Shown one piece after another: positions 46,483-52,199 of a stretch of 64,000 bases of DNA; positions within the stretch are counted from its first letter, which is position 1; each line of letters begins with the position of its first letter. The position numbers and the translations under genes were made by a program. The notes under the pieces were generated by a model. That model saw only the letters and a list, made by a program, of their open reading frames with translations. It did not search any database and was not told the origin of the DNA. The DNA is from Nitrospinae bacterium CG11_big_fil_rev_8_21_14_0_20_45_15 (GTDB taxonomy: Bacteria > Nitrospinota > Nitrospinia > Nitrospinales > VA-1): positions 412,957 to 476,956 of the forward strand of contig PCWG01000042.1 of the NCBI GenBank assembly GCA_002787235.1, read 5' to 3'.

Positions 46483-46971
46483 ATGCACACAAAAATTATT
46501 TCATCATTCCTCATCTTTTTTTTATTCACCGTTCCCGCTTTTGCTGCGGCTCCGAAAGTGGGCGATGTTGCTCCAGATTTTTCTCTAAGCACCATTGATG
46601 GGAAAAATATTTCTTTAGAAAATTTGAAGGGTAAAGTTGTATTGCTTGGAATGTTCCATATTTGCGTTCCTTGTCGTCAGCAGGCTTTGGAATTTAACAA
46701 GGTGCTGAAAGAATTAAAAAATCCCGATTTCGTTGTGTTGGGTGTCAATACAGCGGGGGATTCATCAAAAGATGTGCAAGAGTATTTGAATGATTTTCCT
46801 GAGCCTGTTGGTTTTCCTTATTTGCTGGACCCCGACAGATCTATGAACAAGGCTTATATACAAAGGGATATGCCTACAGTATTGATCATTGGACGCGATG
46901 GCAAGCTCTTGGCCAGAACACCTTGGGTAAGTGCGGATCAATTGATTCCTTATCTGAAAAAGTTGTTATAG
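46483..46971 (+). CDS. TlpA/ResA-like periplasmic thioredoxin
   Basis: A 162-residue exported thioredoxin-fold protein with signal peptide ~1-21. The redox site is C61-V-P-C64 preceded by GMFHI where thioredoxin has W-C. PDFSLSTIDG and the later cis-Pro region DMPTVLIIG are typical of the TlpA/AhpC-TSA class. In relatives it reduces apocytochrome c cysteines or copper-site thiols, which fits the nearby haem and cupredoxin-like genes. GAGGAAA precedes the ATG. The barrel gene follows after 95 nt. Confidence 0.8.
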   Translation: MHTKIISSFLIFFLFTVPAFAAAPKVGDVAPDFSLSTIDGKNISLENLKGKVVLLGMFHICVPCRQQALEFNKVLKELKNPDFVVLGVNTAGDSSKDVQEYLNDFPEPVGFPYLLDPDRSMNKAYIQRDMPTVLIIGRDGKLLARTPWVSADQLIPYLKKLL

Positions 46972-47066: not shown

Positions 47067-48227
47067 ATGCCTCTCCGCAAGTATTCTTCGTTCATTCAAT
47101 TTTTCACATTACTTTTTTTTTTCGTATTGTCCGGTTTGCTAGTTCCGCTACAGTGCATGGGCTTTGACATGGCTTTCGAAGGGCGAATGAAACTGGATTC
47201 GCTGTATTACTTCTCTTCGCCACCGTTTCACAAAGACTTCGACAATGCGTTTGAATTGCGTATGGGAGTTTTGGGCAACGCTTGGGAAAATGACCATCTC
47301 CGTCTGGATTATGAACTGTCGGGCAATGCCATTGAGGTGGATGGTCCTTCGGTGCAGTCTGGTTTGAGACGAGAAACGGATGTGGACTTCTTTCGTGCCT
47401 GGTTGCGTTTGGATGGCGGTAATTTCCAAATTCGCGGAGGTCGTCAGAAAATTCTGTTTGGCGCGGGAAATATTTTTCGGCCTCTTGGATTTTTTGATAC
47501 GCGTGATATTACGGGAGTGGTTCCTCAAACGCGCGGGACTGACAGCATTCGTACGACCTATTTTTTTGATTCTACGAGCTTCCTTCAAACCTGGCTTGTT
47601 CCTGCCAAGCTAGATGATCGTATGATTGTTGGTGCGCGCTGGGAAGGACCGCTGGCAGGTTTGGATGCGGGTGCCGTCGTTCAATATCATCCCGAAACCG
47701 ATCTGAAGGGCTTGCCAAACTTTGCTTCTGAATTGTTCCAATCGGGTTTTCACCTCAAAGGTGAATATGAAATTGGCTATTGGACGGAAGGGCGTGTGGA
47801 TCTTCAGTTGGGCCGACAGAAGCAGGCTTTACGTCTGGATTGGACGGCGGGAGTTGATTATACGTTTAATGTAGGGGAAGGTCTTCATGTTTTACTGGAG
47901 TATTTTCTCTCAGACCGTGGACGAAATTTCATCGCACCCGCATTGGGTAATACCCTGACTGTTCAGGAACTCGGAGTTCTTTTTGACCAGCCGATTGGTA
48001 TTGATATGAAGTGGCAGGTCTTTTCGATTTACGATCTTGGCGATCAAACTTTTCAGATTGTTCCGCAGATAGAATATGCAGTGATACAGGATCTCTATTT
48101 ATACATTCATGGGAGATGGGGCGGGCGTGCGTCTTCGGGTTCTAGAAACGGTCGTTTATTTCAAGATTCTCCTGTATTTTCAGGAAAGGAATCTGCATTT
48201 GGACTTTCATTGGTGAGTTATTTTTAA
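47067..48227 (+). CDS. Outer-membrane beta-barrel protein
   Basis: A 386-residue exported protein with a hydrophobic N-terminal signal (~8-30) and no further TM helix. It shows many alternating amphipathic strands (FEGRMKLDSLYYF; FFRAWLRLDGGNFQIRGGRQKI; LRLDWTAGVDYTFN). The C-terminal residue is Phe (GLSLVSYF), the outer-membrane assembly signature. It resembles DUF1302/porin-like barrels. It begins a tight operon with an ABC exporter (gap 9 nt to the ATPase), suggesting it is that system's outer-membrane part. Confidence 0.7.
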   Translation: MPLRKYSSFIQFFTLLFFFVLSGLLVPLQCMGFDMAFEGRMKLDSLYYFSSPPFHKDFDNAFELRMGVLGNAWENDHLRLDYELSGNAIEVDGPSVQSGLRRETDVDFFRAWLRLDGGNFQIRGGRQKILFGAGNIFRPLGFFDTRDITGVVPQTRGTDSIRTTYFFDSTSFLQTWLVPAKLDDRMIVGARWEGPLAGLDAGAVVQYHPETDLKGLPNFASELFQSGFHLKGEYEIGYWTEGRVDLQLGRQKQALRLDWTAGVDYTFNVGEGLHVLLEYFLSDRGRNFIAPALGNTLTVQELGVLFDQPIGIDMKWQVFSIYDLGDQTFQIVPQIEYAVIQDLYLYIHGRWGGRASSGSRNGRLFQDSPVFSGKESAFGLSLVSYF

Positions 48228-48236
48228 GGATCAGGG

Positions 48237-48938
48237 ATGGATGAAACTGTAATCAGAATTGAAAATGTTGTTAAAACCTATCCTGTTGGGATCGAGGTGT
48301 TTAAAGCCCTGCGTGGTGTTTCGCTTGAGGTGAAAAAGGGTGCCTTCATGTCTATCGTGGGCCCTTCGGGTTCGGGAAAAACCACTCTGTTGAATCTGAT
48401 AGGGGGATTGGATACCCCGACTGAAGGTTCAATTTTTTTCTATGATAAAAAATTGTCGCACATGACACGCAAGGAGATGTCGGCCTATCGCAGGGATAAC
48501 ATTGGATTCATTTTTCAGTCATATAATTTACTGCCAGTCTATACGGTTTATGAAAATGTTTTGTTCCCTCTTTTGGTGATGGGCAAACGTGAAGGCGATG
48601 TCAGGAAAAGCGTTGAGGACATGGTGGCTCGGGTTGGTCTGGCAGAATGCGCCAACAAACGCCCGAATCAGCTTTCCGGGGGGCAGTGTCAACGTGTTGC
48701 TATTGCCCGTGCGTTGGTCAAACGCCCGCCCATCGCTCTGGCAGACGAACCGACCGCCAATCTGGATGCGGAGAACTCCCGACAAATTCTTGAGTTGATG
48801 ACGGAATTGAATCGTGAGATGAAAACGGTTTTTATTTTATCCACTCACGATGAACGGGTTTCTAAATTTGTTACCAGAGAGGTCAAGCTTGAAGATGGGA
48901 TGATTTCTCAGGACAATTTAATGGATGGATTGAAGTGA
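48237..48938 (+). CDS. LolD/MacB-type ABC ATPase
   Basis: A 233-residue ATPase of the LolD/MacB/FtsE class that pairs with FtsX-type permeases. Walker A GPSGSGKTT is near residues 43-51, the signature LSGGQCQR near 143-150, Walker B IALADEPT near 163-170, and the switch histidine in STHDER. The DE-linked Q-loop (FQSYNLLP) is typical. Its stop overlaps the first permease start by 4 nt. Confidence 0.9.
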   Translation: MDETVIRIENVVKTYPVGIEVFKALRGVSLEVKKGAFMSIVGPSGSGKTTLLNLIGGLDTPTEGSIFFYDKKLSHMTRKEMSAYRRDNIGFIFQSYNLLPVYTVYENVLFPLLVMGKREGDVRKSVEDMVARVGLAECANKRPNQLSGGQCQRVAIARALVKRPPIALADEPTANLDAENSRQILELMTELNREMKTVFILSTHDERVSKFVTREVKLEDGMISQDNLMDGLK

Positions 48939-50101
48939 TGATTGCCAAGTTGGCATGGATTCAATTTCTACGTCAGGGAGCGCGTGCATGGCTCAATGTA
49001 GCGGTCACAGGTTTAACACTTGTGACCCTCATTTTCATGACTTCATTATTGAATGGTTTCCAATTACAAGCTTCCAAAAATCTTAAATCGACCGATGTTG
49101 GTGGCGGACATTATCGACTGCCTGATTTTGATATTCTCTCACCGACGGAATGGGAGGATCAAACCTTCAGTCCCCCTCCTTTTTTGAAAAATTTGTCGGA
49201 CACTGAAAAAGCAGAGGTGCTGGTATTGCAAGGGCAATTGTTCCCCAATCGTCGCTTGTATCCGGTTCAACTTCGCGGTATCGACTTAAAGCAAAAACTA
49301 TTGGATCTCCCGCTTGAGCCTTTGTCTCGTCAGGAAAATGGGAATGAATATATTCCCGTTATTATTGGTACCCGTATGTCCGAACGTTCGCGTTTGCAAA
49401 AGGGAGACTCTGCTGTTTTACGCTGGCGCGACCGCTTGGGTGTCATAGACGCGCGTGACGCCAAGGTGATTGAGGTGGCTGATTTTTTAAATCCGCGAGT
49501 TGACGAAGGGGTCGTGTGGTTGTCGCTGGATCGGTTGAGAATAATGACGCGGCGTGAGGGCGAAGTTTCCTGGGTCACAGTGACTCACAACCTGGGGTCG
49601 GATAAACACCTGGAATTTTTGGAACCCGCCACACTGATGTCCGATATTCTCAATCTCCTCAAGCAGGATCGCCGCAATGCCAAGGTTTTATGGGCCATTC
49701 TTCTGTTTCTTGCTGGAACCAGTGTGTACAATTCACAGATTCTGAATGTATTTAAAAGACAAAAAGAAATCGGTGCCATGATGGCATTTGGTATGGAGTC
49801 CAGGACGATCATTGGTCTGTACACTCTGGAAGGAACGATCTCAGGCTTTGGTGCTATTTTTTTTGCTTTTATTTTTGGAGTCCCTTTTTATTACTGGTTC
49901 CAAAGTGTGGGCTTGGACATTTCTCATTTGAGTGCTTCCACAATGCCAGTTCGGGAACGTATTTTTCTCGATTTTCACTTTTCTGAAATGCTTTGGATCA
50001 CGCTCATTATGTTATCTGTGGTCATTTTTTCTGCCTGGCGTCCGGTACAAAAAATTGCAAGGCTGGAACCCACTGTTGCTTTGCGTGGAAAGGGTTTGTG
50101 A
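48935..50101 (+). CDS. FtsX/LolC-type ABC permease (first of pair)
   Basis: A 388-residue inner-membrane protein with TM1 at ~20-42, a large periplasmic (MacB-PCD-like) domain at ~45-250 and three TM helices at ~255-375. The C-terminus (VVIFSAWRPVQKIARLEPTVALRGK) is the typical FtsX ending PxxALR. Overlaps the ATPase by 4 nt and the next permease by 1 nt, so all three are translationally coupled. Confidence 0.85.
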   Translation: MMIAKLAWIQFLRQGARAWLNVAVTGLTLVTLIFMTSLLNGFQLQASKNLKSTDVGGGHYRLPDFDILSPTEWEDQTFSPPPFLKNLSDTEKAEVLVLQGQLFPNRRLYPVQLRGIDLKQKLLDLPLEPLSRQENGNEYIPVIIGTRMSERSRLQKGDSAVLRWRDRLGVIDARDAKVIEVADFLNPRVDEGVVWLSLDRLRIMTRREGEVSWVTVTHNLGSDKHLEFLEPATLMSDILNLLKQDRRNAKVLWAILLFLAGTSVYNSQILNVFKRQKEIGAMMAFGMESRTIIGLYTLEGTISGFGAIFFAFIFGVPFYYWFQSVGLDISHLSASTMPVRERIFLDFHFSEMLWITLIMLSVVIFSAWRPVQKIARLEPTVALRGKGL

Positions 50102-51402
50102 TGTTCAAATGGAATATCCTGGGTGTCCTGAGAGACCGAACCCGATCTGTTTTCCCGTTGACTGTTGTTGCAGTGGGTGTGGCCTTGACTGTGGTTTTGA
50201 TAGGGTTCATGGATGGGATTATTGGTGGTATGATTCAGTCAACGGCGAATCTGGATACTGGAAGTTTGAGGATGGTCAACAAAGCTTATTACGAGGAAGA
50301 GCATCTTTTCCCGATGGATCGGGCACTTGCAGGGCAGACAGAATCTGGCAAATGGCTGAAGTCGCACAGTCCTGAAGAAGTGACATGGAGTGCCAGAATC
50401 CGCTGGGGAGCGTTGCTGGATATCCCCGATAAAGAGGGCATGACCTTGAGTCAAACGCCCATTATAGGAACCGCTCTGGATCTGCTTTCATCTGGTTCAG
50501 AGGAAATCCATCGCTTGCAGTTGACGGAATCGCTGGTGCAAGGGCGTTTGCCAGTGAGTCCCAAAGAAATGCTGGTGGGTTATCAACTCGCAGAGACGCT
50601 GAATTTAAAGCTGGGGCAAAGAGCGACCTTGCTTGGGCAAACCTTTGACGGTGCACTCGCCGCCGATAATTATATCATTGTAGGGTTTGTTAAATTCGGA
50701 CTCACTGCTCTTGATAAAAAAATGGCCCTGATTGATCTGAAAGATGCTCAGGACAGCTTTTATATGGAAGACATTGTCACCGATTGGCTGGGTTGGGTTC
50801 CCCCTGGTTTTGACATTGAAAAACTTGAATTGATAAAAAATGAACTCACGGATTCTGCATCCGATTGGATCAAAACACCTCCTGCATCCTGGTCCCCTGA
50901 TGATCGACCTATATTCCTGACAGTTCTGGATCAGAGGGGTTTGGGAGCGATTTATAAAAAGTTCAAGGCGGTCCGTGCAGTCATCATTGGAGTTTTCATT
51001 TTCCTTATGATTCTGGTGCTTTGGAACGCGGGAATTCTCAACGGGATTCACCGCTATGGGGAATTGGGATTGCGATTGGCGATGGGAGAGTCTCATGCAC
51101 AAATATCTTTTTCTCTGGTCACGGAGGCCTTCGCCATTGGAATTATTGGAGCTGTTATCGGTGCGATTGTTGGCGCGGGCTGTACGCTTTATCTGCAAGT
51201 GAAAGGACTTGATATGGGGAACAATCTGGCGCAAACGGGTTTGATGCTCAACGATGTTGTGCGTGCAAGACTCAGTTGGAGAGGCGTATGGGGAGGAATG
51301 ATTCCGGGGATATTGTCAGGTGTCCTGGGTTCCTGGGTTGCTTCACTTGCTATTTATAAAAGATCCACTTCCAATTTATTTCGAGAGCTCGAAAACGAAT
51401 GA
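50101..51402 (+). CDS. FtsX/LolE-type ABC permease (second of pair)
   Basis: A 433-residue permease with the same layout as its neighbour: TM1 at ~15-37 (FPLTVVAVGVALTVVLIGF), a periplasmic domain to ~285, and three C-terminal TM segments at ~285-425, ending near NLFRELENE. I use the ATG at 50101, which shares one base with the previous stop; a longer upstream frame (ATG 49993) would be cytoplasmic junk overlapping the previous gene. Likely heterodimer partner of the first permease. Confidence 0.85.
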   Translation: MFKWNILGVLRDRTRSVFPLTVVAVGVALTVVLIGFMDGIIGGMIQSTANLDTGSLRMVNKAYYEEEHLFPMDRALAGQTESGKWLKSHSPEEVTWSARIRWGALLDIPDKEGMTLSQTPIIGTALDLLSSGSEEIHRLQLTESLVQGRLPVSPKEMLVGYQLAETLNLKLGQRATLLGQTFDGALAADNYIIVGFVKFGLTALDKKMALIDLKDAQDSFYMEDIVTDWLGWVPPGFDIEKLELIKNELTDSASDWIKTPPASWSPDDRPIFLTVLDQRGLGAIYKKFKAVRAVIIGVFIFLMILVLWNAGILNGIHRYGELGLRLAMGESHAQISFSLVTEAFAIGIIGAVIGAIVGAGCTLYLQVKGLDMGNNLAQTGLMLNDVVRARLSWRGVWGGMIPGILSGVLGSWVASLAIYKRSTSNLFRELENE

Positions 51403-52199
51403 TGCACAGGGCATGCAATCGCAAACTCTACTTCAACTCTAAAAAAATGATGACTCGCCTTTTTTTTCTAGCAATAATTTTTGTCACTTCCTTATCCCCT
51501 GTAAATGCTCAGGAATCTAATATTGATGCAAAGCTTCTCCTGACACAAGTGGATGACAATATCTGGTCTAACACAAAGTTCATTCAGGGTCGCCTTATCA
51601 TTGACAATGGCAGGACGGTTCGAACTTTGTCCGTGGATAACTGGATGGAAGGGGTTGAACGATCTTACAGTCATTACACAGCTCCTGCGCGGGAACGTGG
51701 CACGAAAATGTTGAAAGCGGACAAAAAACTTTGGATGTATACGCCTCGTGCGGATCGAACGATTTTAATTGCAGGTCATTTACTGCGACAGTCTATGATG
51801 GGAAGTGACTTGTCCTATGAAGATATGTCTGAGGACAAGAGGCTGAGTCGTGTTTACGATGCAAAGGTCGAAAAAATGGAAACGCTGGATGGCGTACTTT
51901 GCGCTGTTTTGCTCCTGACTTCTCTTGAAGAAGATACCAATTATCAGACGCGACGTTTGTGGGTTGACCCCGAAAAAAAAATTATTTTAAAACAATATCT
52001 CTACGCAAAAAGTGGGAAATTGTTGAAGACCGTGGAATTTAAAGATTATTTTAAGACCTCGGGACGACTGTTTCCTCGCGAAATGATTTACCGTGACCTG
52101 CTCAAGGAAAATACAAAAACCACCTACAGTTTTGATGAAATCCAGTTTGACGTTGAGATTCCACCAGAATATTTTTCCCAAAGTATCCTGAAACGATGA
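51399..52199 (+). CDS. LolA-like outer-membrane lipoprotein-sorting protein
   Basis: A 266-residue exported protein of the LolA-like PF17131 type: signal region ending PVNAQE, then NIWSNTKFIQGRLIIDNG, the LWMYTPRADRTI core, MMGSDLSYEDM and a C-terminal IPPEYFSQSIL. It would carry a lipid or lipoprotein across the periplasm. ATG 51399 overlaps the permease stop by 4 nt; an in-frame ATG at 51447 would give a tidier signal peptide. It closes the operon that starts with the barrel gene. Confidence 0.8.
   Translation: MMHRACNRKLYFNSKKMMTRLFFLAIIFVTSLSPVNAQESNIDAKLLLTQVDDNIWSNTKFIQGRLIIDNGRTVRTLSVDNWMEGVERSYSHYTAPARERGTKMLKADKKLWMYTPRADRTILIAGHLLRQSMMGSDLSYEDMSEDKRLSRVYDAKVEKMETLDGVLCAVLLLTSLEEDTNYQTRRLWVDPEKKIILKQYLYAKSGKLLKTVEFKDYFKTSGRLFPREMIYRDLLKENTKTTYSFDEIQFDVEIPPEYFSQSILKR

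Follow-up and report, generated by a model that had tools for sequence, protein, structure and literature searches.

A conserved five-gene operon in Nitrospinota combines a LolCDE-like ABC engine with a LolA-like carrier and an outer-membrane barrel, and may export lipids alongside a separate Lol system

The window, a stretch of 64,000 nucleotides from a Nitrospinota genome, holds five open reading frames on the same strand between positions 47067 and 52199, with spacings of 9, -4, -1 and -4 nt between successive genes:

47067-48227, + strand: outer-membrane beta-barrel, 386 aa, with a signal peptide, 18 predicted strands and a conserved long loop at residues 128-157
48237-48938, + strand: LolD-like ABC ATPase, 233 aa, with intact motifs
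48935-50101, + strand: FtsX-type permease 1, 388 aa, with a GTG start and a profile nearest to LolE
50101-51402, + strand: FtsX/MacB-type permease 2, 433 aa
51399-52199, + strand: LolA-like periplasmic carrier (PF17131), 266 aa

The first-pass annotation had taken these gaps to mean that the five genes form one unit, a proposal with which the ORF coordinates agree and which is strengthened by the recurrence of both order and tight spacing in relatives, as described below. A redoxin gene lies ∼95 nt ahead of the barrel gene, and a CobW-type gene on the opposite strand ends 13 nt past the carrier gene.

Each protein was compared with family profiles. The ATPase matches PF00005, and its best NCBIfam match is LolD at 236.7 bits, under the cut-off of 307.75; its Walker A (GPSGSGKTT), signature (LSGGQ) and H-loop (STHD) motifs are intact. 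FtsX (PF02687) was matched in both permeases, with an additional weak Pfam match to MacB_PCD in permease 2. Permease 1 comes closest to LolE and LolF and permease 2 to MacB, and the two permeases score 40.3 and 23.6 bits with the lolCE model TIGR02212, under its cut-off of 362.45. In both, a remote alignment (16–19% identity) places a loop ∼5 residues shorter than the SPAPRITPVGLIPKMKF segment of the genome's own LolCE, a segment that is probably the Hook loop. The alignment is suggestive of permeases that would lack a full-length LolC-type Hook, the element of LolC/LolF that enters LolA and is essential for binding it (PMC10865981).

The carrier matches PF17131 (LolA_like) with 170.5 bits against a cut-off of 30, gives no match to the LolA models PF03548 and TIGR00547, and is the sole PF17131 protein in this genome. 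No lipobox was seen in its leader. The predicted structure (pLDDT 89.5) aligns at TM 0.68–0.72 to the LolA-superfamily structures of its own group, 3buu, 3bk5, 4z48 and 9tp6, which rank before LolB and LolA. Structure 9tp6 is LolA3 of P. gingivalis, a protein that interacts weakly with its LolB (PMC13103446), and deletion of lolA3 in F. johnsoniae has no phenotype in lipoprotein-dependent gliding or secretion (PMC11885536).

The barrel protein has no family match in Pfam or NCBIfam and no sequence relatives in the PDB, even at an E-value of 10. AlphaFold2 models it as an 18-strand beta-barrel with a pLDDT of 90.4. A Foldseek search with this model brought up no close structure; its best matches were to porins, AlgE and Occ channels (TM 0.44–0.58 of query length), and the 50 that were listed include no Omp85 protein. 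Conservation is highest at residues 120-157, a strand followed by the long loop, with the pattern RxGRQxIxFG...RPLxxFD, and similar motifs are present in other barrel groups too. Membership in DUF1302 (PF06980) or Alginate_exp was considered and dropped, as Pfam gives no match to either and what is left is remote kinship; no DUF1302 protein was found in this genome.

One alternative is that this LolCDE-like pump and LolA-like carrier are nothing more than the core Lol machinery, encoded at an odd place in the genome. The operon resembles LolCDE-LolA-LolB in its ATPase, FtsX-type permeases and LolA-fold carrier, both in family and in the proposed order of steps, and this resemblance of components is what the alternative has in its favor. 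The operon differs from that system in its sub-cut-off LolD and LolCE scores, in a carrier of PF17131 and not PF03548, in a dedicated barrel within the operon, and in the shorter Hook loop of the remote alignment. More decisively, the same genome (a 3.37 Mb assembly, 97% complete) encodes one canonical LolCE away from the operon (427.9 bits against a cut-off of 362.45), adjoined by a LolD-like ATPase whose best NCBIfam match is LolD (269.6 bits, under the 307.75 cut-off), and elsewhere a single canonical LolA, which scores 145.5 bits where 112 is the cut-off. Across the phylum, LolCE scores over the cut-off in 65 of 77 Nitrospinota genomes. Since these parts are encoded separately from the operon, and since LolCE is so general in the phylum, the operon is an extra machine, additional to core Lol; the initial suggestion of a system distinct from core Lol therefore holds, the operon's pump not being the only LolCDE in the genome, and the odd-locus explanation is refuted for practical purposes. 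No match to the LolB family was found in this genome, as is often the case in bacteria other than beta- and gammaproteobacteria.

Relatives of the barrel occur in 47 of the 77 Nitrospinota genomes (26 of the 31 good ones), all from one order and mostly at 44–61% identity. In the 20 barrel loci that were read, the order was constant wherever all genes were present, and the genes usually overlap. Barrel and close carrier occur together in 44 of the 77 genomes, with three having the barrel only and three the carrier only, a co-occurrence with a Fisher P of ∼3e-14 that carries no correction for kinship and is inflated through shared ancestry. Cut contigs account for some of the exceptions, and at two loci that lack an adjacent carrier (G048 and G049) an orthologue is encoded elsewhere in the genome (361–362 bits). 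Two types of upstream gene were tried as pointers to the cargo and rejected: among the 25 Nitrospinota loci with enough upstream sequence, a glycosyltransferase is found at 7 and a SPOR/Cds6_C protein at 10, so they mark part of the Nitrospinota only, and both are absent upstream of the window's barrel, with none noticed in other phyla.

Outside the phylum, a plasmid search found all five genes in the same order in Persicobacter (Bacteroidota). When genomes at large were scanned with a profile of permease 2, 69 loci came up, of which 25 belong, by record title, to groups other than Nitrospinota: Muiribacteriota, Cloacimonadota, Calditrichota, Bacteroidota, Neomarinimicrobiota, KSB1, Desulfobacterium, Bdellovibrionaceae and a few others. 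The five-gene block in the window's order is present in Nitrospinales, Cloacimonadota, Bacteroidota and Neomarinimicrobiota, and so ranges from the nitrite-oxidising Nitrospinota to phyla unrelated to them. Among the 46 five-gene loci of the scan, 43 share this order, and in the remaining three the barrel lies behind the carrier. The five-gene arrangement is therefore not due to chance, given that its order and comparably tight spacing recur in the Nitrospinota loci examined and that its order prevails in the scan. Four architectures are seen around the PF17131 carrier:

Architecture A (the window): barrel, ATPase, permease 1, permease 2, carrier
Architecture B (Bacteroidales, Desulfobacterium): carrier, permease, permease, ATPase, barrel
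Architecture C: MMPL pump, carrier, barrel; the large pump protein matches PF03176 MMPL at all five loci checked for it, and the barrel matches DUF1302 at three of three
Architecture D (Vibrio, Plesiomonas, one Muiribacteriota locus): ATPase, one permease, carrier, next gene

Profile comparison ties the barrels of architectures A, B and C together. The profile of window-type barrels aligns with that of the reversed-order barrels of architecture B (Bacteroidales/Desulfobacterium) with an hhalign probability of 99.1% (E 7e-19), and with a DUF1302 set made up of three MMPL-locus barrels and one from Bdellovibrionaceae at 97.3% (E 1.9e-11). Matches of the window-type profile to single barrel sequences from Bdellovibrionaceae, Desulfobacterium and Vibrio were too weak to be decisive; with alignments in their place, the result was clear for two of these groups. 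On the evidence of these profiles, the barrels of the ABC and MMPL versions are homologous. A likeness to MMPL/DUF1302-type systems, raised in the first-pass annotation, is borne out in this sense: PF17131 carriers and DUF1302 barrels do occur with MMPL elsewhere, the barrel there being a remote homologue of the window's, whereas the engine is an RND/MMPL pump in place of an ABC ATPase with two FtsX permeases. From the four architectures and the barrel profile matches it follows that the carrier is conserved as a pair with the barrel, and that the inner-membrane engine varies. Sharing of this pair across the ABC and MMPL versions suggests a system whose specificity lies in its periplasmic and outer-membrane half and whose engine is replaceable.

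The reading we lean towards is that the operon encodes a self-contained exporter that takes a lipid or another strongly hydrophobic molecule out of the inner membrane and delivers it to the outer one, with the barrel as acceptor. An ATPase dimer would power the two permeases, paired as a heterodimer of the MacB/LolCDE type, and these would extract the cargo from the inner membrane's outer leaflet. The LolA-like carrier would then hold the cargo in its hydrophobic groove across the periplasm. The dedicated 18-strand barrel would accept it at the outer membrane and release it into or through that membrane, filling the position that LolB has in the Lol route. We infer the barrel's role as acceptor from its linkage, and the direction, the cargo and all contacts between the parts are likewise put forward as a model. 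The strongest argument is that the same carrier, paired with a related barrel, occurs with either an ABC or an MMPL engine, which points to a shared and probably lipidic kind of cargo. In characterised cases the MMPL family exports lipids or other hydrophobic compounds, and to our knowledge MMPL pumps are not lipoprotein extractors. Further support comes from the separate canonical Lol system, from the retention of the block across phyla, from the co-occurrence of carrier and barrel, from the suggestively shorter loop at the Hook position of both permeases, and from the missing LolB family match together with the weak LolB binding of LolA3 and the lack of a lolA3 phenotype. Some points count against the lipid exporter, besides the remoteness of the Hook alignment and the kinship behind the co-occurrence. 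There is no cargo or biosynthetic gene inside the operon, nor any biosynthetic gene fixed beside it, and the glycosyltransferase of some relatives is absent here; also, permease 1 is nearest to LolE, which in E. coli is the lipoprotein-binding subunit.

This last point bears on a second reading, in which the operon is a specialised route that runs beside core Lol and exports a single lipoprotein or a small number of them, perhaps to the cell surface by way of the barrel. The engine parts are all nearest to LolCDE or MacB and the carrier has the LolA/LolB fold, as would be expected. On the other hand, a non-systematic reading of the loci turned up no lipoprotein gene that regularly accompanies the operon, the permeases appear to have the shorter Hook loop, the carrier pairs with MMPL pumps too, and the LolA3 evidence from Bacteroidota (PMC13103446, PMC11885536) does not point to lipoproteins. 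On balance we favour lipid over lipoprotein as the cargo and regard the lipoprotein route as unlikely. The authors of an in silico study from 2026 hold such an option possible for Borrelia BBJ23-29, an ABC/LolA-like/Omp85 export cluster with an unknown non-polar ligand (PMC13078400). That cluster, like the window's operon, groups an ABC ATPase, a MacB/LolE-like FtsX permease, a LolA-like carrier and a barrel, and its host likewise has a separate LolA, there chromosomal. It is unlike the window's operon in having one permease (as a homodimer), an Omp85-type barrel in place of the 18-strand one, and two extra TPR proteins.

Regulation of related loci brings in two other readings. A TetR-type gene lies ahead of the operon or the barrel at many Bacteroidota loci and one Neomarinimicrobiota locus, and at two of these loci Pfam confirms the assignment. 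The PG1175-PG1181 genes of P. gingivalis (TetR, MMPL, lipoprotein-sorting, hypothetical) are up 13- to 136-fold without iron (PMC10434189), and a set of TetR, lipoprotein-sorting, hypothetical and MMPL genes tops the list of hemin-repressed genes (PMC10470040). Within the PG1175-PG1181 region, PG1178-PG1181 shares with the window's operon a carrier of the lipoprotein-sorting type and an adjacent hypothetical protein, and has a TetR gene (PMC10434189, PMC10470040). TetR regulators and iron/hemin control of this MMPL cousin would fit acquisition. The barrel, whose fold is similar in size to those of the Occ and AlgE channels, would then take up a hydrophobic molecule from the surroundings or out of the outer membrane, and the system would bring it back inside. 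Such uptake or retrograde transport is improbable, since the characterised ABC transporters of the MacB/LolCDE type (type VII) move substrates outward and AlgE itself is an exporter. The TetR genes directly before the operon, as well as the weak MacB_PCD match of permease 2, would also suit efflux of toxic hydrophobic compounds such as detergents or metabolites, comparable to MacAB-TolC. However, the operon and its direct neighbours include no MacA-type adaptor or TolC, the conserved partner is instead a LolA-fold carrier, and most members of a whole order carry the operon, which is more like an envelope function than resistance; we consider efflux quite improbable.

The Vibrio/Plesiomonas cassette of architecture D (ATPase, permease, PF17131, hypothetical, LytTR) has the same modules in one operon, with one permease, two-component regulators at its end and, in the barrel's place, a hypothetical protein weakly similar to the window's barrel. 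The general kind of system is known from sequence and uncharacterised, and the window's version, with its ABC engine and 18-strand barrel, is a new variant. In the open-licence literature, we found neither a functional study of an ABC-type PF17131/COG2834 system nor a paper on the window's version. Taking the architectures together, we tentatively suggest a widespread lipid export route of diderms that would run alongside Lol, Lpt and Mla. In it, a carrier–barrel pair might be served by exchangeable engines, either MMPL or an ABC transporter whose permeases number one or two, and the barrel might replace LolB by acting directly as the outer-membrane acceptor. It has long been asked how non-LPS lipids are transported to the outer membrane, and a compact conserved operon of engine, carrier and proposed outer-membrane acceptor, clean and widespread over several phyla, makes one route directly testable in named strains. 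Among those that carry the operon are Proteiniphilum acetatigenes DSM 18083, Persicobacter and Petrimonas sp. IBARAKI.

Most Nitrospinota loci carry a redoxin gene ahead of the barrel, and the window has one as well:

window 46483-46971, redoxin gene, preceding the barrel

At several Nitrospinota loci, a SPOR/Cds6_C protein and a glycosyltransferase are placed between the redoxin gene and the barrel; in the window, neither of the two is found in that interval. The permease content of the operon also varies, with permease 1 doubled in tandem at two loci (L117:3783-6223 and L124:7101-9414) where permease 2 is also present, giving three permeases in the operon.

In G057, a Nitrospinota MAG consisting of a single contig, the operon seems to be divided between two sites (see also locus L115):

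G057, ∼948 kb (locus L061), barrel, ATPase and truncated permease 1
G057, ∼414 kb (G057:C1:414363), carrier

This split could be attributed to a rearrangement or to an assembly error. Additional distant PF17131-type carriers (∼53–175 bits) are encoded outside the operon in many Nitrospinota, such as genomes G016, G018 and G019.

Other ABC/FtsX and putative pump loci were also observed. Outside the operon in the window's own genome, L013:4478-9979 encodes what may be a MacA-like protein, together with an ABC ATPase and a pair of FtsX permeases, the first of which is separated from the ATPase by ∼1.1 kb. At a further locus, L016:1454-7293, an 808-aa putative RND/MMPL-like pump is followed by an ABC ATPase and then by an 891-aa open frame, which has two LolCE-type matches.
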